Assembly: GCA_030524485.1 (NCBI GenBank)
Contig: JAUNGR010000005.1
Location: 1-45,087 of the forward strand
Source: a bacterium
GTDB lineage: Bacteria > Bacillota > Clostridia > Lachnospirales > Lachnospiraceae
Direction of reading: 5' to 3'
DNA: 45,087 bases
In this document: positions 21,311 to 37,152 of the stretch, one piece after another
How positions within the stretch are numbered: position 1 is the first letter of the stretch
Layout: every line of letters starts with the position of its first letter
Notes under the pieces: generated by a model
Told to the model about the DNA's origin: nothing
Databases searched by the model: none
The model's input: the letters and a program-made list of their open reading frames with translations, nothing else
Position numbers and translations under genes: made by a program

Positions 21311-21850
21311 CTATTCCGTGGCCTGCAGCGGACGATATCCTTCTCCCTTTTCCAATCTCTCATGCACCAGCCAAGTGCTCTCATCCTCCACCGTGCTTTC
21401 CGGCGCCACTCCGACGGAAACGGCATAGCGTTCGTAGAGACCTCCGTAGGTCACGCCTTCCTCCGCTTTTGCGATGGAGAAGTCTTGGTCTGCCACGGCA
21501 TTGTTCGTGTCCTCCAAGGCTCTCTGTGCATAGTCCACCGCTGTTTCTTTGTCCATATCATCCTTCACCGATATCACAATGCTAATTTCATCTAACTCCG
21601 TATCCACAAGCACCGACACATCTGTCATATCTGGATAATAGTTCGCATTTCGCAGCACATCATCGACATCCGCAATGCCCTGCTCCCAATCCAACTCAAT
21701 GTCATCGTGGATTTCCATATCTGGAGTGGGAATGGTCATAGTCTCTGTCTGCCCATTCTCTGCCTGTGTCGTCGGATTTGTCACCGTACTTTCCATACAA
21801 CCGCTCATCAAAACAGCGGTGCAGGCCAACATCACTGCCCATTTTTTCAT
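21311..21850 (-). CDS. Small lipoprotein of unknown function
   Basis: A 179-residue secreted lipoprotein that I do not recognise. The signal peptide MKKWAVMLACTAVLMSGC ends in a lipobox at Cys18. A Thr/Pro/Glu-rich stretch follows, then a compact acidic alpha/beta domain of about 110 residues (VSVLVDTELDEISIVISVKD, DYAQRALEDTNNAVADQDF). The frame is open to 22006, but GGAGG precedes the ATG at 21850, which overlaps the upstream stop as ATGA. Its place at the end of the polysaccharide operon suggests a cell-surface role; nothing more can be said. Confidence 0.65.
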   Translation of the reverse strand: MKKWAVMLACTAVLMSGCMESTVTNPTTQAENGQTETMTIPTPDMEIHDDIELDWEQGIADVDDVLRNANYYPDMTDVSVLVDTELDEISIVISVKDDMDKETAVDYAQRALEDTNNAVADQDFSIAKAEEGVTYGGLYERYAVSVGVAPESTVEDESTWLVHERLEKGEGYRPLQATE

Positions 21851-22815
21851 TCTATTTTTTCCTCCTGTTTGTTCTGCGTCTTCCCCTTTATGTTGCAGGT
21901 CTCCCCGACAATGTAAATGGGTCTTCCTTTTAATTCTGTGAACAAAATCGCAATGTATTCCCCGATAATCCCCACAATCAAAAACAGCACCGCAAACATA
22001 AAACAAAGCAGCACCACAATTGTGGCATAGCCGCTCGGCGTTCCCACCTGAATCCAGCTATATATCGTATACAGCATCATCAAAAAACCCAAAATGGCAG
22101 AAAAGATGCCCGCATAGATGCCTAACTTCAGCGGCATATTGGAAAAACACATGATGGTGTTCATAGAAAACGTAAATAGCTTTTTAATGTTATATTTGCT
22201 CTCACCCGCTACCCTTGCTCTCGCCTCAAACTCTATGGTCGTCTTGCGAAAACCGATATTTTGCACAAATCCTCTTAAGAAACGCACCTTCTCCCTGTAG
22301 TCTTGGCGAAGCACTGCGGCCGCCTGTGCATCCACAGCGAAAAAGTCGGAGGCATTGTTCTCAAACTTCACATCAGAGAGAGCATTGATCACCTTGTAAA
22401 ATCCCACGGAGGTGATGCTTTTGAGCCAACCTGCAGAATCGTTCTTGGTTCTCACCATATTGATGACCTGAAAGCCCTCTTCCATCTTCTCCAAAATCTT
22501 TGGGATGTACTCCGGTGGATGCTGCAAGTCCGCATCCATACAGATGATACAGTCCCCCACAGCATAGTCCAAACCGGCAATCATGGCGGCCTCATGCCCG
22601 AAATTTCTGGAAAAGCTGATAAGCTTCACCTTCTCATTTTGTCTGGCAAAGTCCTTTAGGACAGAGAGACTGTCATCCACACTTCCGTCGTTGACAAAAA
22701 TCAGTTCATAGTCCCAAGTCAGTGTCTGCAAAATGCGGGAAGTCTCCTGATAAAATGCCTGAAGAGCCTTCTGCTCATTGTAGACCGACACCACCACCGA
22801 TACCACTTTTTTCAT
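21847..22815 (-). CDS. Polyisoprenyl-phosphate glycosyltransferase (GT2, GtrB/ArnC-like)
   Basis: A 322-residue membrane GT2 enzyme. The N-terminal GT-A domain has VSVVVSVYNEQ, VNDGSVDDS (Asp43) and the metal-binding D-A-D at 94-96 in CMDADLQHPPEY. Two C-terminal membrane helices lie at about 231-255 and 265-290. This is the GtrB/ArnC/dolichol-phosphate-mannose synthase pattern, which loads a sugar onto undecaprenyl phosphate at the inner face. It overlaps licD by four bases. The sugar it charges could be used outside by a GT-C transferase such as the membrane protein at 27145-28533. Confidence 0.88.
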   Translation of the reverse strand: MKKVVSVVVSVYNEQKALQAFYQETSRILQTLTWDYELIFVNDGSVDDSLSVLKDFARQNEKVKLISFSRNFGHEAAMIAGLDYAVGDCIICMDADLQHPPEYIPKILEKMEEGFQVINMVRTKNDSAGWLKSITSVGFYKVINALSDVKFENNASDFFAVDAQAAAVLRQDYREKVRFLRGFVQNIGFRKTTIEFEARARVAGESKYNIKKLFTFSMNTIMCFSNMPLKLGIYAGIFSAILGFLMMLYTIYSWIQVGTPSGYATIVVLLCFMFAVLFLIVGIIGEYIAILFTELKGRPIYIVGETCNIKGKTQNKQEEKIE

Positions 22816-23699
22816 TTTGTCTCTCCCTCGTCGTCAAATACTAAGATTTCTGTGTTGGAGTGGGAGGGAACTCTCTTTTCCTTCGGCGGAAGTTTTCGAT
22901 AATCTCCATATACCATCTCCAACACCTGCTCCCAGCCCACCGGAACCATGAGCTTGGTATCCTCAAAATCCATATCTGTCACATGCACACACCAGTCTTT
23001 CTCCAGCGTCACATACAGATAATCCGGCTGGTAATTGCTATAATAATATTGCGTGGCCTTGTGTCTCCGACAGCAGAGAGAGAGCCGCCTCTGCAGGCGG
23101 AAAATCCAGCGTAAAGGCAGGCACTTGCCTATGGTCGCCAGCGTGCCCACAAAGATTTTATCTTTCCCTTTATACTTTTGATAATTCAGCTGGTAACGAT
23201 GCCCCATCGCAAAGCCATAGAGCACCTTCTGCAAAAATTTCACCATTTGAATCTGCGTCTTCTTTGCGGGGAGCTTATCCAAAATAAACAAATCCACCCA
23301 GATATGATTTAGCTTGCCGTCATAGTAACGCATCTCCTCGCTGTCCTTGCGCATTTGGCTGTTTTCATAGATAATTCTCGGGGTAAAATCATAGAAAGCC
23401 TTGCCATCGTGATATTCATCCGGCATAACCAAAGTCATTCCGGCAGGCAGTTCCCGCCTTGCCACTCTCAAAAAGGCCTCAAAATGATTTCTGGTAAAAA
23501 CCACATCCGCATCGTCATCCCAAGGAATGAAGCCCTGATGCCTCGCCGCCCCAATCAGCGTCCCCGCATCCAAGGCATATTGAATCTTATATTTTCTGCA
23601 AATTCGGTCTATCTCTTTGAGAATCTTTAGGCTCGCACGATGCACATGGCTCAAATCATACGTTTTCTCCGTCCCTGTTTCCCTTGTCGCTTCTTGCAT
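22812..23699 (-). CDS. LicD-family phosphotransferase
   Basis: A 295-residue protein with the LicD core at residues 43-67: LDAGTLIGAARHQGFIPWDDDADVVF, read as nucleotidyltransferase-fold DxD metal site. LicD proteins transfer phosphocholine or another phospho-alditol from a CDP donor to cell-surface glycans. No choline kinase or CTP:phosphocholine cytidylyltransferase gene is in the window, so the donor is open. It lies between rfbH and the GtrB-like gene in the polysaccharide operon. GAGAGA lies near the ATG at 23699, with AGGAGG somewhat further upstream. Confidence 0.88.
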   Translation of the reverse strand: MQEATRETGTEKTYDLSHVHRASLKILKEIDRICRKYKIQYALDAGTLIGAARHQGFIPWDDDADVVFTRNHFEAFLRVARRELPAGMTLVMPDEYHDGKAFYDFTPRIIYENSQMRKDSEEMRYYDGKLNHIWVDLFILDKLPAKKTQIQMVKFLQKVLYGFAMGHRYQLNYQKYKGKDKIFVGTLATIGKCLPLRWIFRLQRRLSLCCRRHKATQYYYSNYQPDYLYVTLEKDWCVHVTDMDFEDTKLMVPVGWEQVLEMVYGDYRKLPPKEKRVPSHSNTEILVFDDEGETK

Positions 23700-23747
23700 T
23701 GTCTCTCTCTTGCCTCCTTCGTCCCCGCAAGGCTTCCCTCTGCTCTC

Positions 23748-25088
23748 TTAGGCTTCTTCCACCGCTGCCCGAATTGCAGCTGCCATATCGTCAATCATCT
23801 CATCGTTCATTCCAGGATAAACGCCCACCCAAAAGGTATCCCGCATAATCCGCTCTGTCTGCTCCAGATTTCCCACAACACGGTAGCCGCTCTGGCTTTT
23901 TCTCATCTCATCAAAGCAGGGATGCTTAATCAGGTTTCCGGCAAACAGCATTCTGGTCTGCACCCCCTGCTTCTCCACCGCCTGCACCACCCGATTGCGG
24001 TCCACGCCTTCCTTGCAGGTAATCAAAAAGCCAAACCAGCTCGGATTTGCGTGCTCACAGGCTTCCGGCAAAATCAGCTTGTCGCTCAAATCCGCCAACC
24101 TACTGTACAGTCTCTTAAAATTGTGCCTTCTCCTCTCCACAAAGGAAGGGAACTTCTTTAGCTGTGCACAGCCAATCGCTGCCTGCATATCGGTCGCTTT
24201 CAGATTGTAGCCGAAATGGGAGTAGACATACTTGTGGTCATAGCCCAGTGGAAGCTCCCCATACTGCTTGTCAAAGCGATGGCCGCAGAGATTGTCCATA
24301 CCGGACGGACAGCTACAGTCCCGTCCCCAATCCCGAAACGACCGCATAATCTTATTTAAGAGGGGCTGGTCCGTGTACACGGCTCCTCCCTCTCCCATCG
24401 TCATGTGATGCGGCGGATAGAAGCTGGAAGTGCCAATGTCGCCTATGGTGCCGGTCAGTTTGACCTCACCATTTATCTCATACTCGCTTCCTAATGCATC
24501 GCAATTATCTTCCACCAACCAGAGTCCATGTCTTTCACAGAAGACCTTCACCGCTCCCAAATCAAAGGGATTGCCCAGTGTGTGAGCGATCATGACGGCC
24601 TTCGTCCTCTCGGAGAGTGCCTGCTCCAGCAAAGTGACATCCATGTTATACTGCGGAATGGTCACATCCACAAATACCGGCACGGCTCCATACTGAATCA
24701 TCGGAGTCACCGTGGTCGGAAAGCCTGCCGCTACCGTGATGACCTCATCTCCTCTTCGGATTTGCCTCTCCCCCAAAAGTGGGGAAGTCAGAGTCATAAA
24801 GGCAAGCAGATTTGCGGAGGAACCGGAATTCACTAAGGCACAGTAACGCACGCCCAGATACTTTGCCAACTCCCTCTCAAATTTCTCTGTATAACGTCCG
24901 GAAGTCAGCCAAAATTCAAGGCTGGAATCCACCAGATTCACCATCTCCTCCCTGTCGTACACACGGGAGGCATAGGGAATCCTATCCCCTTTTTGATATG
25001 TTTTTTTTGTGTGAAAGGTATCGCAATACTCTGCTACCTGCTCTAAAATCTTCTCTCTTGCCTGCTGTTCGCTCATTCCTTCAAACAT
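23748..25088 (-). CDS. rfbH: CDP-4-dehydro-6-deoxyglucose 3-dehydratase (E1)
   Basis: A 446-residue aminotransferase-fold dehydratase. The usual PLP lysine region reads SSFYPPHHMTMGEGG, with His227/His228 in place of Lys, the mark of the E1 3-dehydratase. A [2Fe-2S] site is suggested by Cys258-x-Cys260-x7-Cys268 (GRDCSCPSGMDNLC) and Cys196 upstream. It removes the C3 hydroxyl of CDP-4-keto-6-deoxyglucose on the way to 3,6-dideoxyhexoses. It normally needs the E3 reductase (ddhD/rfbI), which is not in the window. AGGAG is seven bases before the ATG at 25088; the longer frame to 25148 runs into the repeat region. It follows rfbF and rfbG in pathway order. Confidence 0.9.
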   Translation of the reverse strand: MFEGMSEQQAREKILEQVAEYCDTFHTKKTYQKGDRIPYASRVYDREEMVNLVDSSLEFWLTSGRYTEKFERELAKYLGVRYCALVNSGSSANLLAFMTLTSPLLGERQIRRGDEVITVAAGFPTTVTPMIQYGAVPVFVDVTIPQYNMDVTLLEQALSERTKAVMIAHTLGNPFDLGAVKVFCERHGLWLVEDNCDALGSEYEINGEVKLTGTIGDIGTSSFYPPHHMTMGEGGAVYTDQPLLNKIMRSFRDWGRDCSCPSGMDNLCGHRFDKQYGELPLGYDHKYVYSHFGYNLKATDMQAAIGCAQLKKFPSFVERRRHNFKRLYSRLADLSDKLILPEACEHANPSWFGFLITCKEGVDRNRVVQAVEKQGVQTRMLFAGNLIKHPCFDEMRKSQSGYRVVGNLEQTERIMRDTFWVGVYPGMNDEMIDDMAAAIRAAVEEA

Positions 25089-25117
25089 GGAGGCTCTCCT
25101 TTCCCTTCTATCGAATT

Positions 25118-25212
25118 TTACTCTGAAAGTCCCGGACGGCGGTTGCACAGACCGTGCGAAGCACGGAGCAATCGACTTTCATACCTAGTGCTGATTCGCC
25201 GCAGGCGAATCA
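25118..25212. repeat. Dispersed structured repeat, copy B, with adjoining palindrome
   Basis: Starts with the same 17 bases as copy A. The outer GAAAGTC/GACTTTC arms (25125-25131, 25174-25180) enclose nested GGTTGC/GCAATC and CCGTGC-GAA-GCACGG stems. A separate 9-base palindrome arm pair follows (25192-25200 with 25204-25212, TGATTCGCC/GGCGAATCA). It lies in the 130-base gap between rfbG and rfbH. Confidence 0.75.
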
Positions 25213-25218
25213 TGTCCG

Positions 25219-26286
25219 TTATTTTTCCTCGAAGAATGCGGCTATCTGCTCTCTCGTCACAGCCTGCATCTCTTCTCCTCTCTCGTAGGCCTTCGCCCAC
25301 TCTACCGTCTTCTGCACGGCCTCCCTTACATGATAACGAGGCTTCCAAGCAAAGGTCTTCTTTAACTTGGAGCAGTCCAACTTCAAAAAGTTGGCCTCAT
25401 GCGGGCCTCCGTCATAATGGTTCTCCCAGTGCAGTCCCTCTCCCCAAAATTCACAGAAGAAATCCGCCAGCCTTCCCGTGGACACACAGTCCTCGTCGTC
25501 CGGTCCCACGTTGTAACTGCCCTCAAAGCTTCGGTCCATGTACTGTTTTGCTGCCACCGTAAGGTACACGGAAAGTGGCTCCAGCACATGCTGGTAGGGG
25601 CGGATGGAGTGGGGATTGCGAAGCACCACTGCCTCCTTTTTCAAAGCGGCACGGATGCAGTCCGGCACGATTCTATCTTTGGCGAAATCGCCGCCGCCAA
25701 TCACATTTCCCGCACGCATCGTGGAGATGGCACAGCTGCCATCGGCAAAAAAGGACTGCTTATAACTGTGCGTCACAAGCTCCGAACAGGACTTGCTGTT
25801 GGAATAGGGGTCATAGCCGTCCAGACGATCCAACTCTCGATAGCCATACTCCCACTCCTTGTTCTCATATACCTTATCGGTGGTGACATTGACGAAGGAT
25901 TTCACGCAGGGATGTCTGCGAACACACTCTAGGATATGCACCGTTCCCATCACATTGGTCTCATAGGTGTACACAGGGTCTTCGTAAGAAGTCCGAACGA
26001 TGGGCTGTGCGGCCAAATGCAACACAAGCTCCGGCTGCACCTCATCAAACACCGCCTCCAATTGAGTGAAATTGCGAATATCTCCCTCTATCGAACGCAT
26101 TCCCTCCTGCACCTTTGCAAGCACAAACAAGCTCGGCTCAACCGGTGGCAGAGCGTAACCGGTGACTTCGGCTCCCCACTGCTTTAGAATCTCACACAGC
26201 CAAGAACCCTTAAAGCCCGTGTGCCCCGTCACCAGCACTCTCTTTCCCTGATAAAACTTGCAAATTTCTTTTGTCTCTGCATCCAT
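25219..26286 (-). CDS. rfbG: CDP-glucose 4,6-dehydratase
   Basis: A 355-residue extended SDR enzyme. The NAD-binding GHTGFKG is at 21-27, LVLHLAAQP follows, and catalytic TTDK is at 135-138 with Tyr161-x3-Lys165 (YSNSK). The WEYGYRE-LDRLDGYDPYSNSKSC region and ISTMRAGNVIGGGDF are typical of CDP-glucose 4,6-dehydratases. It converts CDP-glucose to CDP-4-keto-6-deoxyglucose, the substrate of RfbH. The frame opens much further upstream (26451) inside rfbF; the ATG at 26286 is chosen from family length and a GGGAG upstream. Confidence 0.92.
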   Translation of the reverse strand: MDAETKEICKFYQGKRVLVTGHTGFKGSWLCEILKQWGAEVTGYALPPVEPSLFVLAKVQEGMRSIEGDIRNFTQLEAVFDEVQPELVLHLAAQPIVRTSYEDPVYTYETNVMGTVHILECVRRHPCVKSFVNVTTDKVYENKEWEYGYRELDRLDGYDPYSNSKSCSELVTHSYKQSFFADGSCAISTMRAGNVIGGGDFAKDRIVPDCIRAALKKEAVVLRNPHSIRPYQHVLEPLSVYLTVAAKQYMDRSFEGSYNVGPDDEDCVSTGRLADFFCEFWGEGLHWENHYDGGPHEANFLKLDCSKLKKTFAWKPRYHVREAVQKTVEWAKAYERGEEMQAVTREQIAAFFEEK

Positions 26287-26353
26287 GCCCTCTGTTCTCC
26301 CTGTCCTTTCTGTTTCTTTTCTTGTCCTTCTTCTCTTACCTGCACGGCGAGTC

Positions 26354-27130
26354 TCAATCCCTCCAGCTCTTCCAAGGTGCTTTTCCAGACTGCCACAGCT
26401 CCTCCAACTGCATCTTATCCCTCTGGGTGTCCATGCACTTCCAGAAGCCATTGTGACGGTAAGCCATCAGCTGCCCATCCGCTGCCAGCCTCTCCAAAGG
26501 CTCCTTCTCAAATGCAGTCTTATCTCCCTCGATATAATCAAACACACCGGCGTTCATCATCATGTAGCCGCCGTTAATCAAGCTGCCATCCAAATCGTTC
26601 TTTTCCCGAAAGGAACCGATGCCTCCGTCCTCGGCTACGTCCAACACCCCAAAGCGTTGGCCGACATTTACCGCTGTGATGGTGGCAATCTTTCCATGGC
26701 TCTCATGGAAGCGTCTCAACTCATGGAGATTCACATCCGCCACGCCATCGCCGTAGGTCAGCATAAAAGGCTCCTTCCCAATGTATTTTTGAATTCTCTT
26801 AATGCGGCCTCCCGTCATAGTGTGAAGCCCCGTGTCCACCAAGGTCACCTTCCAAGGCTCCGAATAATTGTTATGCACCTCCATGCGGTTGTTCGCTAAG
26901 TCAAAGGTGACATCGGAGGTATGCAGAAAATAGTCCGCAAAGAACTCCTTCACCATATATTGCTTATAGCCCAAACAAATCACAAAATCGTGCATTCCGT
27001 ACTGAGAATAATGCTTCATGATATGCCACAAAATCGGTCTCTCACCTATCTCTATCATCGGCTTCGGTCTCAAGTGACTCTCCTCACTGATTCTTGTCCC
27101 GAATCCGCCTGCCAATATTACAACCTTCAT
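26354..27130 (-). CDS. rfbF: Glucose-1-phosphate cytidylyltransferase
   Basis: A 258-residue nucleotidyltransferase. The signature LAGGFGTRISEE is at 6-17, RPKPM at 21-25 and the metal-binding YGDGVAD at 126-132. VDTGLHTMTGGRI and NGGYMMMNAGVFDYI are typical of RfbF/AscA. It makes CDP-glucose from CTP and glucose-1-phosphate, the entry to the 3,6-dideoxyhexose route. AGGAGG precedes the ATG at 27130; the frame to 27166 includes the ribosome site itself. It lies 14 bases after the membrane protein gene. Confidence 0.93.
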   Translation of the reverse strand: MKVVILAGGFGTRISEESHLRPKPMIEIGERPILWHIMKHYSQYGMHDFVICLGYKQYMVKEFFADYFLHTSDVTFDLANNRMEVHNNYSEPWKVTLVDTGLHTMTGGRIKRIQKYIGKEPFMLTYGDGVADVNLHELRRFHESHGKIATITAVNVGQRFGVLDVAEDGGIGSFREKNDLDGSLINGGYMMMNAGVFDYIEGDKTAFEKEPLERLAADGQLMAYRHNGFWKCMDTQRDKMQLEELWQSGKAPWKSWRD

Positions 27131-27144
27131 CCCCTTGTTTCCTC

Positions 27145-28533
27145 CTATTCCCGAAATACATTCCAATGGTTCTCTTTTAAGATACCAAGAGCCCTGCGAA
27201 TCTGTTCCGGTCCTTTTTTATACTGAAAAATTGTTTCCAGCTCCTCGTCGCTCCATTCCTCATAGCGAAGAGCCGCCTCTCTCTTCTCGATTAAATTGTT
27301 CTTTCTGTAAGGTGCCTTCTCCCACTCCTTCCATCCGGTGTAGGAGTTGCCTGCCAAAAAGACTGCCGTGATACAGACTGCCACCCCAAAGAGTACTCTT
27401 CTTGGAACCGTTTTTCTCACCCGCTCCTTCAGGCAGGCGAAGGTCAGCAAAATGCCAAATATTCCCACCTGAAACTGCAGGGCGTAGCGGGAACTCATGC
27501 CATAGTCCACATTCATAAAAATCCAGCGGGACAGTAGGATGAGCACATGGTTCATGCCACCCGCTGCCAAAAGCAGCAGAGGCAACAAAGTTCTCTCGTA
27601 CAAGCGATATCTCAAATTCAGCACCAATGCAAAGACATAACAGGCCACCACAAAGACTCCCAACAGCACAATCTGCCCATCTTCTTGGCATATCTGCCGA
27701 ATGCATTCATCCCCCAAAACCGTGGAGGCAAAGGAACTGAAAAAGAATTGTACAAAAAACAGCGGCTGTTCCAAAAGGGTGTCCACAAGGGAGGCATCCA
27801 CCGCTCCGGCATGCTCTTCCACCGTGTGAGCGTTGCTCCACATATAAAGCAGCAGAGGCAACAAGGCACATAGCAAGTAAAGCAACCATTCTCCAAGCTG
27901 CGTTCTGACTGCCCGAAAGGACTTTGCCCGCTGCAGGCGAAGCCCCATCGTCCACAGACAGGCCAAGATAAGAACGGCCGAGTAGACCGCACAGTAAGGT
28001 CCCGCCACCCCCAATGTGATGGCGAAAGGCAACAGACACATCCTGAGTTTGTCATGAGGCCTTGCCTCCTGCCGATACACTCTATCTAGCACCGTGTAGT
28101 GATAATAGAAGCAGGCAAAGGCTGCAAAATGCACCCAACCTGTCCCATTTGTGAGCATCTCCCACTTATTGAGACCAAACAGCAGAAACATCAGGGATAG
28201 ATACCAACCCAAAGAAAACTGCTGCTTTTTGCAGTAGGAAGCCAGAACCCAAGCCGAAGCTCCCAGCCCCAGCACCCCCAATGCCATCTCCACAACCGTA
28301 TTATAGCCAAAGAAGGTGACATTCACAATTCTTTCCACATAATTTAACGGAATGCGTGTCAGCACATCTGCAACAAAAAACTTTTGGGGATTCCAAACAT
28401 CCGGTAAGTAAGCATTAATCAGACGTATGTAATCCGTGTATGCCACATCAATCACCGCACGGTTCAGATAGAGAAAGCAAAATAGAATTCCAATGAGCGG
28501 AACCCAGTCGTAAATCCATCTCTTTATTTTCAT
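27145..28533 (-). CDS. Polytopic membrane protein, possibly a GT-C glycosyltransferase
   Basis: A 462-residue protein with about 10 to 11 hydrophobic segments and a soluble C-terminal tail of about 60 residues. The first external loop, just after the first membrane helix, contains YTDYIRLINAYLPDV. An acidic residue in this loop is common to GT-C enzymes that use polyprenyl-phosphate sugars. I do not recognise the exact family. Size and topology do not fit Wzm (about 260 residues, six helices). It lies between gmhBA and rfbF. A role in side-chain glycosylation or polymerisation is inference. GGGAG lies eight bases before the ATG. Confidence 0.6.
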   Translation of the reverse strand: MKIKRWIYDWVPLIGILFCFLYLNRAVIDVAYTDYIRLINAYLPDVWNPQKFFVADVLTRIPLNYVERIVNVTFFGYNTVVEMALGVLGLGASAWVLASYCKKQQFSLGWYLSLMFLLFGLNKWEMLTNGTGWVHFAAFACFYYHYTVLDRVYRQEARPHDKLRMCLLPFAITLGVAGPYCAVYSAVLILACLWTMGLRLQRAKSFRAVRTQLGEWLLYLLCALLPLLLYMWSNAHTVEEHAGAVDASLVDTLLEQPLFFVQFFFSSFASTVLGDECIRQICQEDGQIVLLGVFVVACYVFALVLNLRYRLYERTLLPLLLLAAGGMNHVLILLSRWIFMNVDYGMSSRYALQFQVGIFGILLTFACLKERVRKTVPRRVLFGVAVCITAVFLAGNSYTGWKEWEKAPYRKNNLIEKREAALRYEEWSDEELETIFQYKKGPEQIRRALGILKENHWNVFRE

Positions 28534-28564: not shown

Positions 28565-29872
28565 TCAATCTTTAAAGAAGTGTTCCTCCAACATCAGGCA
28601 AAGTGCGTGATAGACCGGTAGATGCAGCTCCTGAATCTTAAAGGTCTCCGTCTCCGGAACCACAAGAGCCACGTCACAGCAGCCCCTTAAGGCACCGCCG
28701 TCTCTTCCCAACAAACCTACCACCTTCATCCCCTTTGCCTTCGCCGCGCAGGCTGCATAAAGCACATTTTTGGAATTTCCGGAGGTCGAGATGCCCAAAA
28801 ACACATCGCCAGCCTGCCCCAGACCATAGAGCTGCTGGGCAAAGGAGAGAGTTCCATCCACATCGTTCAAAAAGGCAGTTGTAAGCCCTGCATGTCCAGT
28901 CAAGGAGAGAGAAGGCAAGGCTCCCTGCAACTTTTGAGCCAGCTCTGCCCCTAAATCCGCATCCACCGCACAGAGTTTCTCCTGAAACTCCTGCGGCAGC
29001 GTCCTCTTTTTCACAAAGCCCTTCATCAGCTCGCCCACGATGTGCTCCGCATCTGCACAGCTCCCGCCATTTCCAGCCACCAACAGCTTGTTGCCAGCGG
29101 CATAGCAATCTCGCAGCAACTCGTAAGCTCTCTGTATGTCCTCCTGTATCGCTGCCAATTTGGGATAACGCTCGATCAGTTCTCTCAGATATCTTTGTTC
29201 GTCCATCGTTCTCTCCCTCTTCTCCTTGTCTTGTGCCCTCGGTTTCGTCTCCTCCGTCTCGTCCATAGCGTCCTCCAAAATCTGAGACACCGCCGCTTGC
29301 AAGTCCTTGCAGTAGCAATCGTAGTCCGACTGCCTTCCTTCCTGCAAATCTTTTTTGCGAATCTCCTCCCCGTAACCGGTTCCGACCAAGATGGAACGAA
29401 GACCAAAGCGTCTTCCAGCCTCGGTGTCCGAGAGCTTATCTCCTATCATCCACGAATGCTCCCTATCAATCCTTCCATTCTGCTCTGCCTGCTCCAAAAG
29501 CCCAGTATCTGGTTTGCGGCAGTGGCACTCACAGCGATATTTGCCAATGCCATTGGTGGGGTGATGAGGGCAGTAATAATAAGCATCAATAAAAGCTCCT
29601 TGCTCCTTTAAGACCTCATCCAGATAGCGATGCAGAGCCTTCACATCTTCCTCCGTGTAGTAGCCCCTCGCCACCCCCGCCTGATTGGTCACTACCACCA
29701 CCTCATACCCTGCCTGATTGAGGCGAGCGATGGCGGCGGCCACCCCGTCCAGCAGCTGCAAATCTTCTTTTCGATGCAGATAATGCACCTCTTTGTTTAT
29801 CGTACCGTCTCTATCCAAAAATACGACTTTTCGTCCCTTTTCTTCTCTGTAAAATTCTCTATGAAAGCTCAA
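28565..29872 (-). CDS. Fused heptose-bisphosphate phosphatase / phosphoheptose isomerase
   Basis: A 435-residue fusion. Residues about 13-200 are a GmhB HAD phosphatase: FLDRDGT at 18-24, VTNQAGVARG, zinc ligands in CPHH (101-104) and CECHCRKP (114-121), and MIGDKLSDTEAG. Residues about 223-435 are a GmhA SIS isomerase: GNGGSCADAEHIVGEL and ISTSGNSKNV. Together they cover sedoheptulose-7-phosphate isomerisation and dephosphorylation of heptose-1,7-bisphosphate. The start is TTG at 29872 with AAGGAG seven bases upstream, overlapping hddA by 14 bases. An internal ATG at 29206 has its own strong GAGGGAG site, so a separate GmhA may also be made. Confidence 0.92.
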   Translation of the reverse strand: MSFHREFYREEKGRKVVFLDRDGTINKEVHYLHRKEDLQLLDGVAAAIARLNQAGYEVVVVTNQAGVARGYYTEEDVKALHRYLDEVLKEQGAFIDAYYYCPHHPTNGIGKYRCECHCRKPDTGLLEQAEQNGRIDREHSWMIGDKLSDTEAGRRFGLRSILVGTGYGEEIRKKDLQEGRQSDYDCYCKDLQAAVSQILEDAMDETEETKPRAQDKEKRERTMDEQRYLRELIERYPKLAAIQEDIQRAYELLRDCYAAGNKLLVAGNGGSCADAEHIVGELMKGFVKKRTLPQEFQEKLCAVDADLGAELAQKLQGALPSLSLTGHAGLTTAFLNDVDGTLSFAQQLYGLGQAGDVFLGISTSGNSKNVLYAACAAKAKGMKVVGLLGRDGGALRGCCDVALVVPETETFKIQELHLPVYHALCLMLEEHFFKD

Positions 29873-30932
29873 ATGTATACTCCTTATTTGGCATTTTTAC
29901 GGACACTTGGCGATAATCCCAACGGTTCTCGTCCGAGCACCAACTCTGTGCCCCACGAAGCTCAAAATTCCAGTCTGTGAGCTGACCGCCCACCTTCTCC
30001 AACCTCTCCGCTACCTTATGCTTTACGTTGTAGGGGCAGTACAAAAGCAGAAAGCCTCCTCCACCTGCTCCCAAGAGCTTGCCGCCCAAGGCTCCCGTTT
30101 TTAGGGCTTCCTCGTACAACTCATCCACCTTGGGGTTGGTAATCTTGCTGCTCATACGCTTTTTGCTCTGCCAACCATAGTCCAAAAGCTTTCCGAAGTT
30201 ATGAAGATTGCCCCGCAACAGCTCATCCTTCATCGCATAGGCCAGTGCCTTCACCTCGCACATCGCCTCAAAGGGGTCCTGTTTTTTGTAGTTGCTCACT
30301 TGGTCCTTGATGATGTTTGCCGACACATGAATGTTGCCCGTGTAACAGAGCAGCAGATTGTACTGCAGCTCATGAATGATGTCCTTCTTGATACGCAAAG
30401 GATTCACCACCACGTTGTTGCGTCCGTGGAACTCAATGAAATTAAAGCCACCAAAGGTCGCCGCATACTGGTCTTGGTAGCCGCCTGCAATCCCCAAATC
30501 CTCACGCTCCACACCATAAGCCAAATCCGCCAACGCATAACCGTCCATCTGCACGCCCTTCCACCTGCCCATCGCCGAGAGCAAAGCCACCATCACGGTG
30601 GAGGAAGTGCCAAGACCGGACCCCGGAGGGGCATCGCACTGCAAATACACCTCGCAGCCCTGCCGGATGTCCATCGCTTTTAAGGCTGCCGTCACCAAAT
30701 CCAGCTTTCCGTCGTAAATATAATTTTCTTTCGTGTTGTACTTGACCGTCATATCAAAATCCAAGGAATGTACCACAATCTGGTCATCCTCCCTTGGGAT
30801 AATCGAGCAATATGCATATTTGTTGATGGTGCTGCCGATAATTGCACCGCCCTGCTCCTCACAGAAGGGAGCCACATCCGTTCCGCCCCCGCCAAAGCTC
30901 ACCCGCAGGGGTGCCCGTCCTCGAATTACCAT
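29859..30932 (-). CDS. hddA: D-glycero-D-manno-heptose 7-phosphate kinase
   Basis: A 357-residue GHMP kinase. The N-terminal RAPLRVSFGGGGTDV is the hallmark of HddA-type kinases. The ATP-binding PPGSGLGTSS is at 102-111, and GALGGKLLGAGGGGFLL lies near the C-terminus. It phosphorylates C1 of heptose-7-phosphate to the 1,7-bisphosphate that GmhB then hydrolyses. It overlaps hddC by seven bases and gmhBA by 14. AAAGGA is eight bases before the ATG. The related L-fucokinase group is less likely given the neighbours. Confidence 0.92.
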   Translation of the reverse strand: MVIRGRAPLRVSFGGGGTDVAPFCEEQGGAIIGSTINKYAYCSIIPREDDQIVVHSLDFDMTVKYNTKENYIYDGKLDLVTAALKAMDIRQGCEVYLQCDAPPGSGLGTSSTVMVALLSAMGRWKGVQMDGYALADLAYGVEREDLGIAGGYQDQYAATFGGFNFIEFHGRNNVVVNPLRIKKDIIHELQYNLLLCYTGNIHVSANIIKDQVSNYKKQDPFEAMCEVKALAYAMKDELLRGNLHNFGKLLDYGWQSKKRMSSKITNPKVDELYEEALKTGALGGKLLGAGGGGFLLLYCPYNVKHKVAERLEKVGGQLTDWNFELRGAQSWCSDENRWDYRQVSVKMPNKEYTFELS

Positions 30933-31633
30933 ACAATGTTTCCTTTCTCAACGTCCTCCCGAAAACGGAAATAATCCTCCGGAATTCCGATGTCAATAAA
31001 ATATCCGTCATGCACCAAACCGCCAATCTTCTTTCCTTCCTTCATCCATCTGGGAATCATCTCATTCTCCAGAGAGACCTTCCCGTCTGGAATTTCGTCC
31101 AGCAGTCTGCGGCTCATCCAATAAATACCTCCGTTTATCGTTCCCGCTCTCTTTTCACTGGTTTTTTCGTTAAAACCGACCAGACGATTGCCCAAAAGCT
31201 GTGCCTCCCCGTAGCGGGAAATGTCCTCCACCTCCCGCAGCACCAGAGCCATATCCGTCTGCTCCTTCGCTGCAAGCTGCCACAGCTTTTCATACGAGAA
31301 CAGATAAAAGGTGTCGGCATTCAAAACCAAAAAACTCTCATCATGCACAAAACGCCCCGCATTCTTGATGGCTCCCGCCGTTCCCAACAACTCTTCCTCA
31401 TAGGCGTAAGAAATCTGTAGGCCAAAAGACGCACCATCCTTAAAATAGTCTTCCACCATGCTTCCCTTATATCCCACAGCAAAAATAATTTCCGTGATTC
31501 CCTGCTTTGCCAGCTCATGAATCAGATATTCCATAAATGGCTTTCCCTTAGCAAGAGCCATCGGCTTTGGCCTGTCGTTGACCACGGAACGCAGCCTTGT
31601 CCCCAATCCTCCTGCGAGCAGTATTGCCTGCAT
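30926..31633 (-). CDS. hddC: D-glycero-alpha-D-manno-heptose 1-phosphate guanylyltransferase
   Basis: A 235-residue nucleotidyltransferase. LAGGLGTRLRSV is at 6-17, RPKPM at 21-25, the metal-binding VLNADTF is in the middle, and the C-terminus GYFIDIGIPEDYFRF is typical of HddC. It makes GDP-D-glycero-alpha-D-manno-heptose. It is the first gene of the polysaccharide operon, with AGGAGG eight bases before the ATG. A strong promoter and a 5' hairpin lie just upstream. Confidence 0.92.
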   Translation of the reverse strand: MQAILLAGGLGTRLRSVVNDRPKPMALAKGKPFMEYLIHELAKQGITEIIFAVGYKGSMVEDYFKDGASFGLQISYAYEEELLGTAGAIKNAGRFVHDESFLVLNADTFYLFSYEKLWQLAAKEQTDMALVLREVEDISRYGEAQLLGNRLVGFNEKTSEKRAGTINGGIYWMSRRLLDEIPDGKVSLENEMIPRWMKEGKKIGGLVHDGYFIDIGIPEDYFRFREDVEKGNIVW

Positions 31634-31808: not shown

Positions 31809-34800
31809 TTATTCAAAATCTTCTTTGATAATATCCCAAACGGCATCCACACTGAAATGCTCTCGGATATAGTTCTGGGTGTTTTGGCTCATCTTTGCAC
31901 ACTGCTCTGGATTTTCATACAGTGCAATCACCTTCTCGGCAAAGGCGGCTGCCTCATCCTCCACGCAGAGCACCTCCTCCACCTGCGGAATTCCCTCCGC
32001 TCCGATGGATGTGGTCACGATGGCGGCTCCGTTGTAGATGGCCTCCACCACCTTGCCCTTCACACCGGCTCCGTAGCGCAGCGGCACCACCACAATGCGG
32101 GTGACGGCATACAGCCTTGCCAGTTCCTCCTCGCTCACAAAGCCCTTGACCAAAATGCCCTTTTCAGGGTCATGCAAAGCACGGATTTCCTCGGTGGCCT
32201 TGGAACCCACGATGTAGAAAGGAATCTTCAGCTTTTCGTAGATTTTCGGGAAGATTTCCTGTGTGAACCAGAGCACGGCATCGGCATTCGGCGGATGGGC
32301 AAAGCCCCCGACAAAGAGCAGTCCCTCTCTTCTGGCAAAGTCCGCAGGAATGTTGTCCAAAAATTGCTCATATACATAGGCGGTGATGGCCTTAACCGGA
32401 ATGGAAGCGTCGATGGCATGAATCGCATTCTCCTCCACATAGGAAGGGTAGTAGGACATGTCTGCCCGTCTCATCATTCCCAACTCAATGGTCTTCCAAT
32501 ATTCCGCTTCCCGCCTCTTTTTCTCATCCTTTGTCAACTCATACTCCCTGCTCTCCCGCAAGAAGTGCAGGTCATGACCATAATAAATCACCTTAATGTC
32601 GGTGTTCTCCCGAATGAAATCGACGTACTTGGTCGCAATGTGCGGTCGATTTAGGTAAGCAAAGTCAATCTCATCCTTGTTCTTGAGAATCCAATCCCAG
32701 ATACCTGCCTGATACTCGGCTCCGTAGAGAATCTCAATGCCCATCTGCTGCAAAGCGGTGGAATATGGCTCCTCGTGCAGGAAGTTATCTCCCAAGAATT
32801 TCACAACATAGCCCTTTTTCAGGAACATCTTTAGGTACTGATAAGTGGTCTTGGAACCAGCATCTTTGTCGAAGGTCGGAACATAGTGGTCCACCACCAG
32901 AATCAGGGGCTTGCCTTGGCTCCTCTCCCTCGCTCTAAAGGGGTTGGGATTTCCTGTGTTTTTGGACTGCTTTTGGAACTCTTCCGCCCACTTTTCCTTC
33001 AACTTCTTGCTGTTTTCCACCTGATACCGCTTTAAACCGCTGCCGTTGACATCCGTTCCGTTGGAGATGCCTTCAAAATGCACAATCTTGGAGAGGGGCT
33101 GATACACCACCCGATAACCAGCCTTGCGAACCTCAAAGGCCAAATCAGAGTCCTCACAATAAGCAGGAGCAAATCTCTCATCAAAACCGCCAATCTCATC
33201 CCAGAGCTTCTTACTTAGAAGAATCGCCGCTCCAGAAATGTAATCGACATCCTTCACATAGTTGTATTCTGGCTTATCTGGGTCATCCAAGCGTCCGTAA
33301 TTCCAGCCAGAACCATCGCTCCAGATGATGCCGCCTGCCTCCTGCAAGCGTCCATCCGGATACACCAGCTTGGAACCTACCATGCCTATGCTCTCATCCG
33401 CTTCAATCAGCTGCACCAGAGAGGAAAGCCAGCCCTCCGTCACCTGTGTGTCATTGTTTAAAAACATCACATAGCGACCTCTTGCCTTCTTTGCTGCCTG
33501 ATTGCAGTTCTTCAAGAAGCCCTGATTGGTGACATTGCGGCTGATGACCAGATTTTTGACAAACTTATCCAATTTCTGGGTGGCATCCGTGGACACATCG
33601 TCGGCAATAATCACCTCATACTCAACATCCCTTGTGTGCTCAGCAATCGAACGCAGGCATTCGTAGGTGTAGTATACCTGATTGTAGCAGGGGATAATCA
33701 CAGAGACCAGCGGCTGCTCACATTTAGGAAGCACCACTCTTCCGTGCTCCAGATAGCCCTCCCCTATCGCAAAGTCTCCCGCGATGCGGTTGCGTCCCTC
33801 ACCGGTCAGATACAATTTCAGATACTTCGCCGGATGCCGCAGGGTATTTTTCAGGTAATTGAGCACCTTACGCCTTCTCGTGCCCTTCGGGAAGCTCTCG
33901 TCCACCAGATGGAAGAGGCGGCGAGCCACCTTAAACAGCACCGACTCGTGCTTGTTTAAATACACCAAAAGCTTTGCCTGTTCCTCAATCTCATGCCGCA
34001 AGTCCCGAATCATAATCTCCAGATTGGTCACATGGTTATTGGTGAGTCTCTGAATCTCCTGCATTTTTTTGATGGTCTCGTCCCTCTCGGCGATGGCCTC
34101 ATCTCTCGCCTCTATCTCCAACTTGCGTCCCTCGGCAAGACCGATTGCATCCTTTCTCTGCTGCTCCTTATCTGCCCAAGATTCTGGTGTGTAGACCGGT
34201 TGTAAGTAACGCAGCAAATAAGAACTGCCGCCATTCTTTCCGCCATGCACATAGTTTTGGAAGGAAGTTTCCATCGCGGCATATACCGCCGCTAACTCCT
34301 CAAAAATGCCGAAAGCAGCCAGATAGTCTCCCTCCGAGTCAAAGGGCAGTCGGTCTCTGGCTTTCAGATAAAAATAGTACAGATTGCGGTACCACAGATA
34401 TTCCAGCGGAATCGGGAAATCAAACACCCACTCATAATCCATGCCACAGATGCCCCCATCCTCCTGCACCATCATATTTTCAAACAGACCATCTACGTTG
34501 GAGAGCACAAAACTGTCCCCCTCAAGCAGGGCATACTGCTCCTGTGTCAGGTTCTGCCCAAATACAGCAGCAAATTCCTCCGTCCTCTCAAAAGGTCTCG
34601 TTTTTCCTCCGTCAAAGAGCTTCTTTAAGGCCGAAGCCAGCTCCTCCACCACATGTGCGGCCTCCTCGTCATCCACGACCTGTCCGCCACACAGCTCATC
34701 CATCAGTAAGTTCTCCATCGTCTTACCTTTCAAGAAAGGAAACCTTGCTGTGGTCTTGTCCTCACTCAGCTCGACAGGAACCATGCGAAGAGAAGGAAAT

Positions 34801-35813
34801 TGCTCCAGAATCTTTTCCCTCTTCTCCTTCAGAGAGGCGATGTGCATGCTGTGGCTGCCAATCGCTTGCTTCTCCACAAAACGCTCTCCGTTCTCCAAAA
34901 CAATGCTGGTCTTGGTTTGAAATTCCTCTTTGCGAGTTCCATTGTACTTTACAAACAAAAGCTCTTTTTGACTCTCTTTTGGCTTAGAATCCGCCTTAGC
35001 ATCCGCCTTCGTCCAAAGCAACAGGTAGGAACTGGTAAACTGTGTAAACTGCCCTTCCTCGCAGCAGAGATTCAAGGCATCTTCCTCCGAAATCACTTGG
35101 TATCTCGGTGCATCATAGGCTGCTCCCAGATTGCGAAACTCTCCATGCATCGGCAGATAGGCATCCGAGTATAGACTGACCGGCAACCTATAGTCCGAAA
35201 TTGGGTAATACCAACGCAGGCTGCCCTCTTCCTCTCCTTCCTCAAACAGCTCCTCCAGTTCTCTCTTTGTGAAGTCCCGCTCCAGCCTTGCCGCCCCACT
35301 GAAGTAACGCACCGCCATCTTGTTCATCGCTGTGACAAACAAAGTGCCGCCTTCCTTCACATATTCCTTCGCTTTTTGCAGCAGCTCACTGTAGGGATTT
35401 TTTGAGGAAAACCACTCCGCTGCTCGTCCCAAACTTCCCACAAGCACCACATAATCAAAGGCTTGGCTGCCCTGCTCGTCCACAATCTCTTTCACATAGG
35501 AAAGTCTTGCCTCTCCTTCTTTCTCCTCCAGAACCTTCGCATAACGGCTTCTTCCCACCAAAATTTCCTCGTCATCGGTCTCAAATACCGTCACCGACAA
35601 CCCTTTTTCGAGAAAAAGGCCAGTCAAGGCTCCCGCTCCTGAGCCAATCTGCAGCAGGCATTTTCCCTTTTCAAAGGGGAACCACTCCAACAGATTTTCC
35701 CTCAACTTAGAACAAGCATACAGAACGGCCGGTTCCGTCTCCTGCCTCACCGCCGCCTCCATATCCCCCTGATACCGCTCCAACACTTCCAAAATCTTAT
35801 CTGCGTCTCTCAT
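31809..35813 (-). CDS. Multidomain methyltransferase-like / kinase-like / coiled-coil / GT2 / GT4 glycan enzyme (WbdD-like front end)
   Basis: A 1334-residue protein. Residues about 45-270 resemble a class I SAM methyltransferase (LLQIGSGAGALTG, 53-65). Residues about 285-545 resemble an aminoglycoside- or eukaryotic-type kinase: Lys315 in RFVEKQA, SNVDGLFEN with Asp441 and Asn446, and MDYEW with Asp459. A charged coiled coil spans about 545-615. A GT2 domain starts at 701 (PLVSVIIPCYN), with NND at 786-788, GGFDERF and CEDSDLAFEV. A GT4-like C-terminal region contains LLFVGGFAHPPNADAV, GFVSEEELARLY and PLRYGAGVKGKVVEA. The order methyltransferase-kinase-coiled coil matches the O9a chain terminator WbdD. 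The ATG at 35813 is chosen over 35879 because it lies after the wzt stop; its Shine-Dalgarno is modest. No signal peptide. Confidence 0.8.
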   Translation of the reverse strand: MRDADKILEVLERYQGDMEAAVRQETEPAVLYACSKLRENLLEWFPFEKGKCLLQIGSGAGALTGLFLEKGLSVTVFETDDEEILVGRSRYAKVLEEKEGEARLSYVKEIVDEQGSQAFDYVVLVGSLGRAAEWFSSKNPYSELLQKAKEYVKEGGTLFVTAMNKMAVRYFSGAARLERDFTKRELEELFEEGEEEGSLRWYYPISDYRLPVSLYSDAYLPMHGEFRNLGAAYDAPRYQVISEEDALNLCCEEGQFTQFTSSYLLLWTKADAKADSKPKESQKELLFVKYNGTRKEEFQTKTSIVLENGERFVEKQAIGSHSMHIASLKEKREKILEQFPSLRMVPVELSEDKTTARFPFLKGKTMENLLMDELCGGQVVDDEEAAHVVEELASALKKLFDGGKTRPFERTEEFAAVFGQNLTQEQYALLEGDSFVLSNVDGLFENMMVQEDGGICGMDYEWVFDFPIPLEYLWYRNLYYFYLKARDRLPFDSEGDYLAAFGIFEELAAVYAAMETSFQNYVHGGKNGGSSYLLRYLQPVYTPESWADKEQQRKDAIGLAEGRKLEIEARDEAIAERDETIKKMQEIQRLTNNHVTNLEIMIRDLRHEIEEQAKLLVYLNKHESVLFKVARRLFHLVDESFPKGTRRRKVLNYLKNTLRHPAKYLKLYLTGEGRNRIAGDFAIGEGYLEHGRVVLPKCEQPLVSVIIPCYNQVYYTYECLRSIAEHTRDVEYEVIIADDVSTDATQKLDKFVKNLVISRNVTNQGFLKNCNQAAKKARGRYVMFLNNDTQVTEGWLSSLVQLIEADESIGMVGSKLVYPDGRLQEAGGIIWSDGSGWNYGRLDDPDKPEYNYVKDVDYISGAAILLSKKLWDEIGGFDERFAPAYCEDSDLAFEVRKAGYRVVYQPLSKIVHFEGISNGTDVNGSGLKRYQVENSKKLKEKWAEEFQKQSKNTGNPNPFRARERSQGKPLILVVDHYVPTFDKDAGSKTTYQYLKMFLKKGYVVKFLGDNFLHEEPYSTALQQMGIEILYGAEYQAGIWDWILKNKDEIDFAYLNRPHIATKYVDFIRENTDIKVIYYGHDLHFLRESREYELTKDEKKRREAEYWKTIELGMMRRADMSYYPSYVEENAIHAIDASIPVKAITAYVYEQFLDNIPADFARREGLLFVGGFAHPPNADAVLWFTQEIFPKIYEKLKIPFYIVGSKATEEIRALHDPEKGILVKGFVSEEELARLYAVTRIVVVPLRYGAGVKGKVVEAIYNGAAIVTTSIGAEGIPQVEEVLCVEDEAAAFAEKVIALYENPEQCAKMSQNTQNYIREHFSVDAVWDIIKEDFE

Positions 35814-35832
35814 CTTCTCTTTTATGCCTCTC

Positions 35833-37152
35833 TTAGTCAGCCGGATAGAATTTCGTTTCCACCTTAGACTCCATATCATAGACTCCGACCGTGTTCTTGT
35901 TAGAAATCACAGTCAGACTCGCCACATCGTACATTCTGTGGTACACGACATGCTCGCCTTCCTCAAAGCCGGTACAACTCATGGAAATCAGATACTCTCC
36001 GCCCTGAAGTGTCATCTTTTGCTTAAATTCCACCTGATACATGTCTCCATCTTTCACGGGATGAATCTCACAGCCCTCGTACATGGTGTTGGTGCCTGTC
36101 AAATCTGCTCCCTTTTTGTCCTTGATGGTGTAAGTAAAAATCGGTGCCTCCAAAGCGGCATGAAAACGGATTTTTTCTCGAATCGTGAACGTCTCTCCCT
36201 TTAACAGGAGATTGGTGACATTGCCCCTCTCGTCCAGAAAGCCAAAATCAAAAATCTCCGCTCTTCCGTCTCCGTACTCGGTCCGGTTGGGATTGATGGT
36301 CAGCTTTTCCTTCATCAGGGAGGTCAGCTCCCCCTCTTTCGGGTGTTTTTCCTCTGCCCTATTCCCCTCCGGCTTCGCCTTCTTGGAGAGTTCTTCCTCC
36401 AACGCATCCATCTGTCCCGCAAGAATCTTCTTGTACAAATCCACCATGTGACCGGCCTCTCCCTCTGCGACAAAGTTGCCTCGATTCAGTAAAACCACCT
36501 TATCGCAGTATTTGATGATGCTGCCCATGTCGTGCGTCACCATCAAAATCGTGGTCCCATTTTGGCGGATTTCCTCCATCCTGCGGTAGCACTTCGCCTG
36601 AAAGAACACATCTCCCACCGAGAGTGCCTCATCCACAATCAAAATCTCCGGCTCCACATTGATGGCTAAGGCAAAGGCCAGCCGCACAAACATACCACTG
36701 GAGTAGGTCTTCACCGGTTGGTATACAAAGTCCCCGATGTCCGCAAAGTCCAAAATCTCCTGCAGTTTCTCATCCATCTCCTTCTTGGTGAAGCCCATCA
36801 TGGTACCGTTCATGTAAATATTCTCAATGCCGGTATAATCCATATTGAAACCGGCTCCCAGCTCCAACAAGGCCGAAATCTTTCCATTCACCGTCACCGT
36901 TCCGGTGGTCGGAGTCAGCACTCCTGTGATAATCTTCAAAATTGTGGATTTTCCGGAACCGTTTGTTCCGATGATTCCCACCGACTGTCCCTTTTCCACC
37001 TCAAAAGACAAACCGTTCAGAGCATAAAAATCCCTGTGATAACTCTTATGAGTCAGGCTGATGGACTCCTTCAGCCGGTCAATCGGCTTTTCGTAGAGCC
37101 GATACACCTTCGTTACGCCTTGAACGCTTATCGCAGATGTTTCTTGCTTCAT
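35833..37152 (-). CDS. wzt: Polysaccharide ABC exporter ATPase with C-terminal carbohydrate-binding domain (Wzt)
   Basis: A 439-residue ATPase. Walker A GTNGSGKST is at 62-70, LLELGAGF follows, the signature YSSGM is at 150-154, Walker B LIVDEAL at 171-177 and His207 is the switch. A Lys/Glu-rich linker (about 245-285) leads to a beta-rich C-terminal domain of about 145 residues like Wzt-C, which in E. coli O8/O9a binds the capped glycan end. The start overlaps the DUF3783 stop as ATGA, and the gene is followed at once by the WbdD-like gene. No Wzm permease gene is in the window, which is unusual. Confidence 0.9.
   Translation of the reverse strand: MKQETSAISVQGVTKVYRLYEKPIDRLKESISLTHKSYHRDFYALNGLSFEVEKGQSVGIIGTNGSGKSTILKIITGVLTPTTGTVTVNGKISALLELGAGFNMDYTGIENIYMNGTMMGFTKKEMDEKLQEILDFADIGDFVYQPVKTYSSGMFVRLAFALAINVEPEILIVDEALSVGDVFFQAKCYRRMEEIRQNGTTILMVTHDMGSIIKYCDKVVLLNRGNFVAEGEAGHMVDLYKKILAGQMDALEEELSKKAKPEGNRAEEKHPKEGELTSLMKEKLTINPNRTEYGDGRAEIFDFGFLDERGNVTNLLLKGETFTIREKIRFHAALEAPIFTYTIKDKKGADLTGTNTMYEGCEIHPVKDGDMYQVEFKQKMTLQGGEYLISMSCTGFEEGEHVVYHRMYDVASLTVISNKNTVGVYDMESKVETKFYPAD

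Follow-up and report, generated by a model that had tools for sequence, protein, structure and literature searches.

A probable polymerase and chain terminator combined in one protein of Lachnospiraceae, encoded beside a Wzt with a carbohydrate-binding domain

The window analyzed here, a 45,087-nucleotide stretch of DNA from a bacterium of the family Lachnospiraceae (NCBI GenBank assembly GCA_030524485.1, contig JAUNGR010000005.1, positions 1 to 45,087), encodes a 1334-residue protein in which a class I S-adenosylmethionine (SAM) methyltransferase (MT), a kinase-like domain, a long predicted helix and two glycosyltransferases (GTs), of types GT2 and GT4, follow one another. The adjoining gene encodes Wzt, an ABC-transporter ATPase ending in the carbohydrate-binding domain Wzt_C. 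We consider it probable that this one protein both polymerizes a glycan and terminates its chain, as part of an ABC-transporter-dependent pathway in which the glycan is extended, measured, capped and exported. This reading is carried by the domains themselves, the modeled fold of the kinase, the invariance of its catalytic-type residues and the linkage to the Wzt_C gene, all of which the analysis shows; enzyme activities, a methyl phosphate as cap, assembly of the coil, chain measurement and recognition of the cap are inferred from them.

According to the proposed mechanism, the C-terminal GT2 and GT4 would act on the inner side of the membrane, where they would lengthen a polyprenol-linked glycan, and the long helix would assemble into a coiled coil that sets a fixed spacing for the capping domains. 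Once the non-reducing chain end reached these domains, the kinase would phosphorylate the terminal sugar and the methyltransferase would then methylate the terminal phosphate, bringing growth to a stop. Wzt_C of the neighboring Wzt would bind the capped end, so that Wzt, together with a Wzm permease (probably that of contig C159 of the same genome), would export finished chains only.

Results

Domain architecture and the kinase-like region

The open reading frame (ORF) at 31809-35879 on the minus strand is uninterrupted over 1356 codons. Its Met23, the codon of which begins at 35813, past the wzt stop, and is preceded by GAGAGG, starts the 1334-residue protein; counted from this methionine, the length agrees with that given in the original prediction. 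The order MT, GT2, GT4 proposed there was recovered by Pfam searches, as was Wzt_C on the adjoining ATPase, so that the window Wzt carries both an ABC ATPase and a PF14524 domain (coordinates in Table 1).

The region between the MT and GT2 was silent in sequence searches. Pfam returned for this part of the window protein a single chance-level row (MINDY_DUB, E = 0.061), and the kinase segment alone (289 residues) matched no Pfam family at E values up to 1, with PHROGs and PADLOC left out of the search. Among 17 members of the kinase family, one had one Pfam match (E = 0.095), and the kinase profile compared with Protein Data Bank (PDB) sequences gave chance rows only, for example, designed helical proteins. 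The AlphaFold2 (AF2) model of the region was nevertheless clear (predicted local distance difference test (pLDDT) score 89.9, predicted template modeling (pTM) score 0.84), and its structure matches (Foldseek, VIA) included APH, MPH, RIO2, LicA and AmiN. The alternative of some other fold was therefore rejected: residues 285-545, which the original prediction had called kinase-like, do model with a kinase-like fold. Furthermore, all four residues named there, Lys315, Asp441, Asn446 and Asp459, are invariant in 27/27 and 67/67 alignment rows (window counted). Judged by fold and residues, the domain has a predicted APH/AmiN-like kinase fold with a catalytic Asp.

Relatives of the protein and the association of methyltransferase and kinase

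The kinase profile was run against 84,980 species genomes and yielded 525 confirmed relatives, with record names including Lachnospiraceae, Enterocloster, Hungatella, Lacrimispora and Clostridium. The loci studied were the best 80 of the 525 and hence favor the MT-kinase-GT architecture. The MT is fused to or lies beside the kinase in all 80, GT2 and GT4 are both inside the kinase ORF in 76, and a Wzt_C gene is present in 79; thus, the MT-kinase-GT frame of the window is not a product of chance. Of the four loci without both GTs, two are truncated where the stretch ends (L057 and L108) and two have broken frames (L040 and L095).

Alignments of these proteins were built with the window included. 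The kinase alignment A1 held 16 of the 29 available rows, with no stop in the extended reading and with the start of L016 trimmed, and A3 was A1 minus one further row, which held Ns. The MT alignment A2 held 19 of 29 MT rows, A4 every fused relative in which both GTs are full (26), and A5 the 66 non-redundant among 76 relatives.

One gene encodes both MT and kinase in 29 of the 80 loci; in the other 51 they are neighboring separate genes. A tree was built from the GT2-GT4 part of 77 proteins. To account for fused and separate MTs, at least four changes are needed on it (22.4 on average after shuffling), and the window protein, with its fused MT, pairs with that of L038, in which the MT is separate. 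Thus, the join between MT and kinase appears to be easily made or broken and is not a defining trait.

This bears on the nature of the cap. Instead of a methyl phosphate, the two enzymes might produce a sugar O-methyl group and a separate phosphate, or a phosphate or cyclic phosphate alone. Such caps have precedents: WsaE of the Gram-positive Geobacillus stearothermophilus is reported to cap by 2-O-methylation (PMC2943079), and a Clostridioides difficile S-layer glycan, whose locus includes an ABC transporter, was assigned a terminal rhamnose cyclic phosphate (PMC6254364). The 51 relatives with a separate MT gene are in keeping with this alternative. However, adjacency or fusion in 80/80 loci, with at least four changes of fusion state, suggests, by analogy with WbdD of Escherichia coli O9a and ORF6 of Klebsiella pneumoniae O7, that the two enzymes act successively on one substrate, and we regard a different cap as unlikely.

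Linkage to Wzt_C and the export partner

By its own terms, the original prediction would have been refuted by homologues consistently lacking a Wzt_C partner. We sampled 150 genomes of the window's own family, one per genus, with an E value cut-off of 1e-10 for the MT-kinase region. This region was matched in 79 genomes, about half of the sample, and Wzt_C in 94; 76 genomes had both, 3 the module alone, 18 Wzt_C alone and 53 neither (odds ratio 75; Fisher p 3e-21, which is only indicative because the genomes are related). With the partner present in 76 of the 79 module-bearing genomes, the prediction was not refuted. A best Wzt_C match at E 3.8e-35 or better was found in 77 genomes, 76 of which have the module. 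In genome G081, a strong Wzt_C match was seen and no MT-kinase match was found.

The two genes are also physically close. With distances counted from the 80 strongest matches to Wzt_C among those listed, 68 of the 79 genomes have it no more than 2.5 kb from the best module match and 5 more have it within 6 kb; in the remaining 6/79 it was not seen on the contig of the module. Among the 80 loci, the Wzt_C gene overlaps the MT frame or ends within 300 bases of the MT in 75, and the single locus without it, L072, is on a contig ending 42 bases before the module. Thus, in the neighborhood survey that the original prediction had called for, the partner is nearly always beside the module. A set of 20 more distant loci, hand-picked from the 79 module-bearing genomes, had Wzt_C and a clear Wzm within the stretch in 18 cases (not in L133 and L135). 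The possibility that proximity is a property of near-identical relatives only was rejected, since it also appears in the family-wide sample and among the distant loci. Across the phylum, 7 of 299 sampled genomes matched the kinase profile, 4 from the own family (the own genome among them) and 3 from other families, and the kinase-profile family therefore seems uncommon in the rest of the phylum.

The window genome, which is 86% complete, has a single Wzt_C match; ABC2_membrane is matched three times in it, twice above the cut-off. The ABC2_membrane protein of contig C159, which stops ~1.1 kb after its gene, matches the permeases located directly upstream of wzt in relatives, with E values down to 2e-147, and is probably the Wzm partner of the window Wzt. 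A Wzm of this type adjoins wzt in 26 of the 80 loci and lies elsewhere in the stretch in 13. As a separate observation, positions 20000-34411 of C159 (L122; genome G000) form a second polysaccharide region, in which Wzm is followed by a ManA-like gene at the contig end; the other genes, named by eye as was the ManA-like one, are a Glf-like mutase, a LicD-like gene, a nucleotidyltransferase, a flippase-like gene, GTs and an RfbC-like gene.

A helix of near-constant length

In the predicted structure, one helix (residues 543-640) joins the kinase to the GT2, starting 19 residues after the end of the last kinase helix (residue 523). We compared its length in 77 proteins (76 of the 80 relatives and the window). 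The helix segment from the kinase to a conserved RLTNNH stretch is 40 residues long in 52 proteins and 41 in 16, i.e., 40 or 41 in 68/77, the additional residue of the longer class being close to the segment start. Rarer lengths are 43 residues (6 proteins), 47 residues (two proteins, those of the window and L056) and 61 residues (L038, the window's congener). Relative to the common 40, the three longest forms thus differ by +7 (window), +7 (L056) and +21 (L038), that is, by whole heptads. Moreover, 77/77 proteins have exactly 96 residues from the RLTNNH stretch to the border of GT2. Because the segment is near constant, its longest forms differ by whole heptads and the 96 residues to GT2 are fixed, the pattern fits a coiled coil under length constraint. 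Locus L056 (9986-10819 and downstream) is a second relative with a seven-residue-longer helix.

Comparison with known systems

The original prediction considered fusion of the terminator to two GTs, in an apparent Gram-positive, a new arrangement. The comparison does not support this: both the O7 ORF6 protein of K. pneumoniae and the Gram-positive WsaE precede it. As described by Kelly et al. 2024 (PMC11231755), ORF6 is a single, experimentally tested MT-kinase-coil-GT2-GT2 protein whose kinase has no recognizable sequence and models like AmiN. Its products were phosphorylated and methyl-phosphorylated; an Asp441Ala variant gave no phosphorylation, and the polysaccharide that it left in vivo was read by the authors as neither terminated nor exported. 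The window protein resembles it in the N-terminal SAM methyltransferase, the AmiN-like predicted kinase, the presumed coil and the two C-terminal GTs, and the O7 cluster likewise contains wzm and wzt. By its published description, with which the comparison was made, ORF6 differs in a carbohydrate-binding fold after the kinase, where the window protein has only the 19 residues leading to the helix, and in two GT2 modules in place of a GT2 and a GT4. The orthologues aligned in that paper come from alpha- and gammaproteobacteria and cyanobacteria, with homologues in Methanoculleus, and its main text contains no occurrence of "Gram-positive", "Firmicutes" or "Clostrid" (PMC11231755).

WbdD, as described (PMC3482155), shares with the window protein the order MT, kinase and C-terminal helical region, as well as a Wzt partner with a carbohydrate-binding module, and was the best Foldseek match of window residues 1-700. 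Unlike the window protein, WbdD has no GT domain; moreover, its kinase is described as near eukaryotic kinases such as Src (PMC3482155), whereas the window kinase, among the matches listed, models nearest to APH-type kinases, as was published for O7 ORF6. WbdD and Src-type kinases are not among the VIA matches listed for the window kinase, although families outside that list may still match. The WbdD paper also states that comparable systems serve Gram-positive O-linked glycans (PMC3482155).

WsaE combines, like the window protein, an MT and two GTs in one Gram-positive protein (PMC2943079). Its GTs are two rhamnosyltransferases, its gene overlaps wzm-wzt, and its Wzt was predicted to bind the methylated chain. 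It is described with three active domains, a kinase not among them, which distinguishes it from the window protein with its kinase-like domain, and "coiled-coil" has 0 occurrences in that paper (PMC2943079).

Among 72,556 plasmid records searched with window residues 1-700, one matched. Citrobacter braakii plasmid pF217-3 (NZ_CP136728.1) encodes in order a permease, a Wzt_C ATPase and a 649-residue MT protein. The gene order is a point of resemblance, and the MT scores 145 bits with the MT profile of the window family; the protein differs in having no GT match and only a marginal, though colinear, kinase match (A3, 5.2 bits). An E. coli genome search with the Citrobacter gene gave no match. 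The surrounding region (L143, 85336-104208) belongs to a conjugative plasmid, with rhamnose genes beside the permease, Wzt_C ATPase and MT protein. Residues of the Citrobacter protein that match the published ORF6 residues G91, G93, E112 and Y158 are displaced by one position and the one that matches D441 by five, whereas Y28 and Y66 do not fit the offset; these displacements hint that the window family and O7 ORF6 are related.

To our knowledge, WbbB of Klebsiella O12 lacks an MT-kinase terminator. It resembles the window protein in uniting all required enzymes and a coiled-coil ruler in one polypeptide and differs in its three GT modules, which are of other families (PMC11231755).

Given O7 ORF6, WsaE, the C. 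difficile glycan and the remark in the WbdD paper, neither the fusion nor Gram-positive capping is new as an idea. What is new here is a Gram-positive variant common in its own family: its second GT is a GT4, the carbohydrate-binding module of ORF6 is not inserted, the MT is either fused or separate, and the rod is near-fixed. In the titles and abstract openings of a literature set that covers few subscription journals, we found no description of the window family in Lachnospiraceae. The original prediction is supported, by inference, in that one protein with an MT-kinase terminator, a rod, two GTs and a Wzt_C partner would extend, measure and cap a glycan, a function that we find well supported; it is not supported in claiming novelty for the fusion.

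Weighing the proposed function

Several findings weigh against this function. As for export, three of the 79 module-bearing genomes (G010, G076 and G090) were found without Wzt_C; the gene upstream of the window wzt encodes a DUF3783 protein, wzm not being adjacent; the best Wzm candidate sits on a separate contig, C159; and a Wzm of the window-genome type was not found in the examined stretch of 41/80 loci. As for the known systems, TM-scores of the match to WbdD are low (0.18 and 0.27), and methylation by WsaE in vitro was independent of chain length (PMC2943079). As for the helix, its pLDDT is only ~55-80; a 3.5-residue periodicity is the best period but is not significant (66 of 1000 shuffles equal it); the +1 (16/77) and +3 (6/77) length classes are not heptads; and a stretch around residues 583-624 is near-invariant, with conservation at 581-620 beyond the need of a spacer.

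In the neighborhoods searched, this conserved stretch is confined to kinase-carrying ORFs (81/81 hits, window copies counted, and 1/1 in the other set), and it may therefore dock a partner. Accordingly, the helix could be a scaffold only, tethering the catalytic domains or docking a partner without measuring, which would be compatible with capping. The restricted, near-invariant stretch, the lack of significant periodicity and the +1 and +3 classes favor such a role, whereas a length of 40 or 41 residues in 68/77 proteins and the whole-heptad differences of the three longest forms speak for a ruler. We give the scaffold role a minor but appreciable chance, somewhat above that of a different cap.

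Neighboring genes and possible sugar precursors

Downstream of the module lie sets of sugar genes (Table 1). The HddC-, HddA- and GmhB-GmhA-like genes would probably supply a GDP-heptose precursor; homologues over half the length (tblastn) occur at 49, 46 and 28 of the 80 loci, respectively. The genes at 21847-27166, including a nucleotidyltransferase that we take to be RfbF, likely form a dideoxyhexose and decoration set. Judging from the annotation of these heptose-type and dehydratase/RfbH genes, heptose and dideoxyhexose are likely precursors of the glycan. The 462-residue membrane-like protein is, at a guess, a GT-C enzyme.

Table 1. Coordinates of the module, its Wzt and the sugar genes in the window
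Feature	Position	Strand	Basis
Complete MT-kinase-helix-GT2-GT4 protein, 1334 residues	31812..35813	-	stop codon 31809-31811; upstream in-frame start 35879 would give 1356 residues
Class I SAM methyltransferase, residues 1-262	35028..35813	-	Pfam Methyltransf_23 E 1.9e-6
Kinase-like domain, residues ~282-525, Lys315/Asp441/Asn446/Asp459	34239..34970	-	AF2 model, structure matches, residue invariance
Lone predicted helix, residues 543-640, candidate coiled-coil ruler, conserved stretch RLTNNHVTNLEIMIRDLRHEI	33894..34187	-	predicted structure
GT2 glycosyltransferase, residues ~699-960	32934..33719	-	Pfam Glycos_transf_2 E 3.7e-24
GT4-type glycosyltransferase, residues ~969-1334	31812..32909	-	Pfam Glyco_trans_1_4 E 7.1e-22; NCBIfam TIGR03087 E 1.4e-26, under model cut-off
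Wzt: ABC ATPase and C-terminal Wzt_C carbohydrate-binding domain (residues 290-427)	35833..37152	-	PF00005 E 1.6e-23, PF14524 E 3.3e-42
HddC-like, HddA-like and GmhB-GmhA-like (single ORF) genes	28565..31633	-	NCBIfam: GmhB above cut-off, others below theirs
462-residue membrane-like protein	27145-28533	-	no Pfam or NCBIfam match; tblastn homologues in 28/80 loci
Nucleotidyltransferase, CDP-glucose 4,6-dehydratase, RfbH, LicD, PgfS-like GT2	21847-27166	-	dehydratase and RfbH above NCBIfam cut-offs

Genes of this kind raise a further alternative, namely, that the kinase and MT decorate repeat units or the linkage region and that chain length is set elsewhere. LicD, the PgfS-like GT2 and the 462-residue membrane protein are possible decoration genes in the neighborhood, and part of the helix is conserved beyond what a spacer needs. 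The tight link to Wzt_C, however, suits recognition of an end group, whereas decoration of every repeat needs no such link, which makes this alternative the least probable of those considered, and a very unlikely one.

In the capsule of Enterocloster bolteae, alpha-mannose and beta-rhamnose are described as alternating (PMC8353590), and a pair of GT4 and GT2 enzymes could make such a mannose-rhamnose polymer. We do not claim this capsule as the product of the module, because in a locus (L042) of an E. bolteae metagenome-assembled genome heptose genes adjoin the module.

Implications

Control of chain length by capping has so far been worked out in Gram-negative O antigens, and Lachnospiraceae are a bacterial family common in the gut. 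If the extend-measure-cap reading of the protein is extended to its family, about half of the sampled genomes (79/150) might make end-phosphorylated, end-methylated glycans, with Wzt_C proofreading them and a near-fixed rod setting their length, with the window (+7) and its congener (+21) as natural ruler variants. This generalization is tentative, and we hold it to be rather doubtful as a whole. If it is true, the capping logic of O antigens, with a similar unannotated kinase, would govern surface glycans of a gut-common family, and the near-constant rod, one heptad longer in the window and three in its congener, would make the ruler model testable in natural variants.

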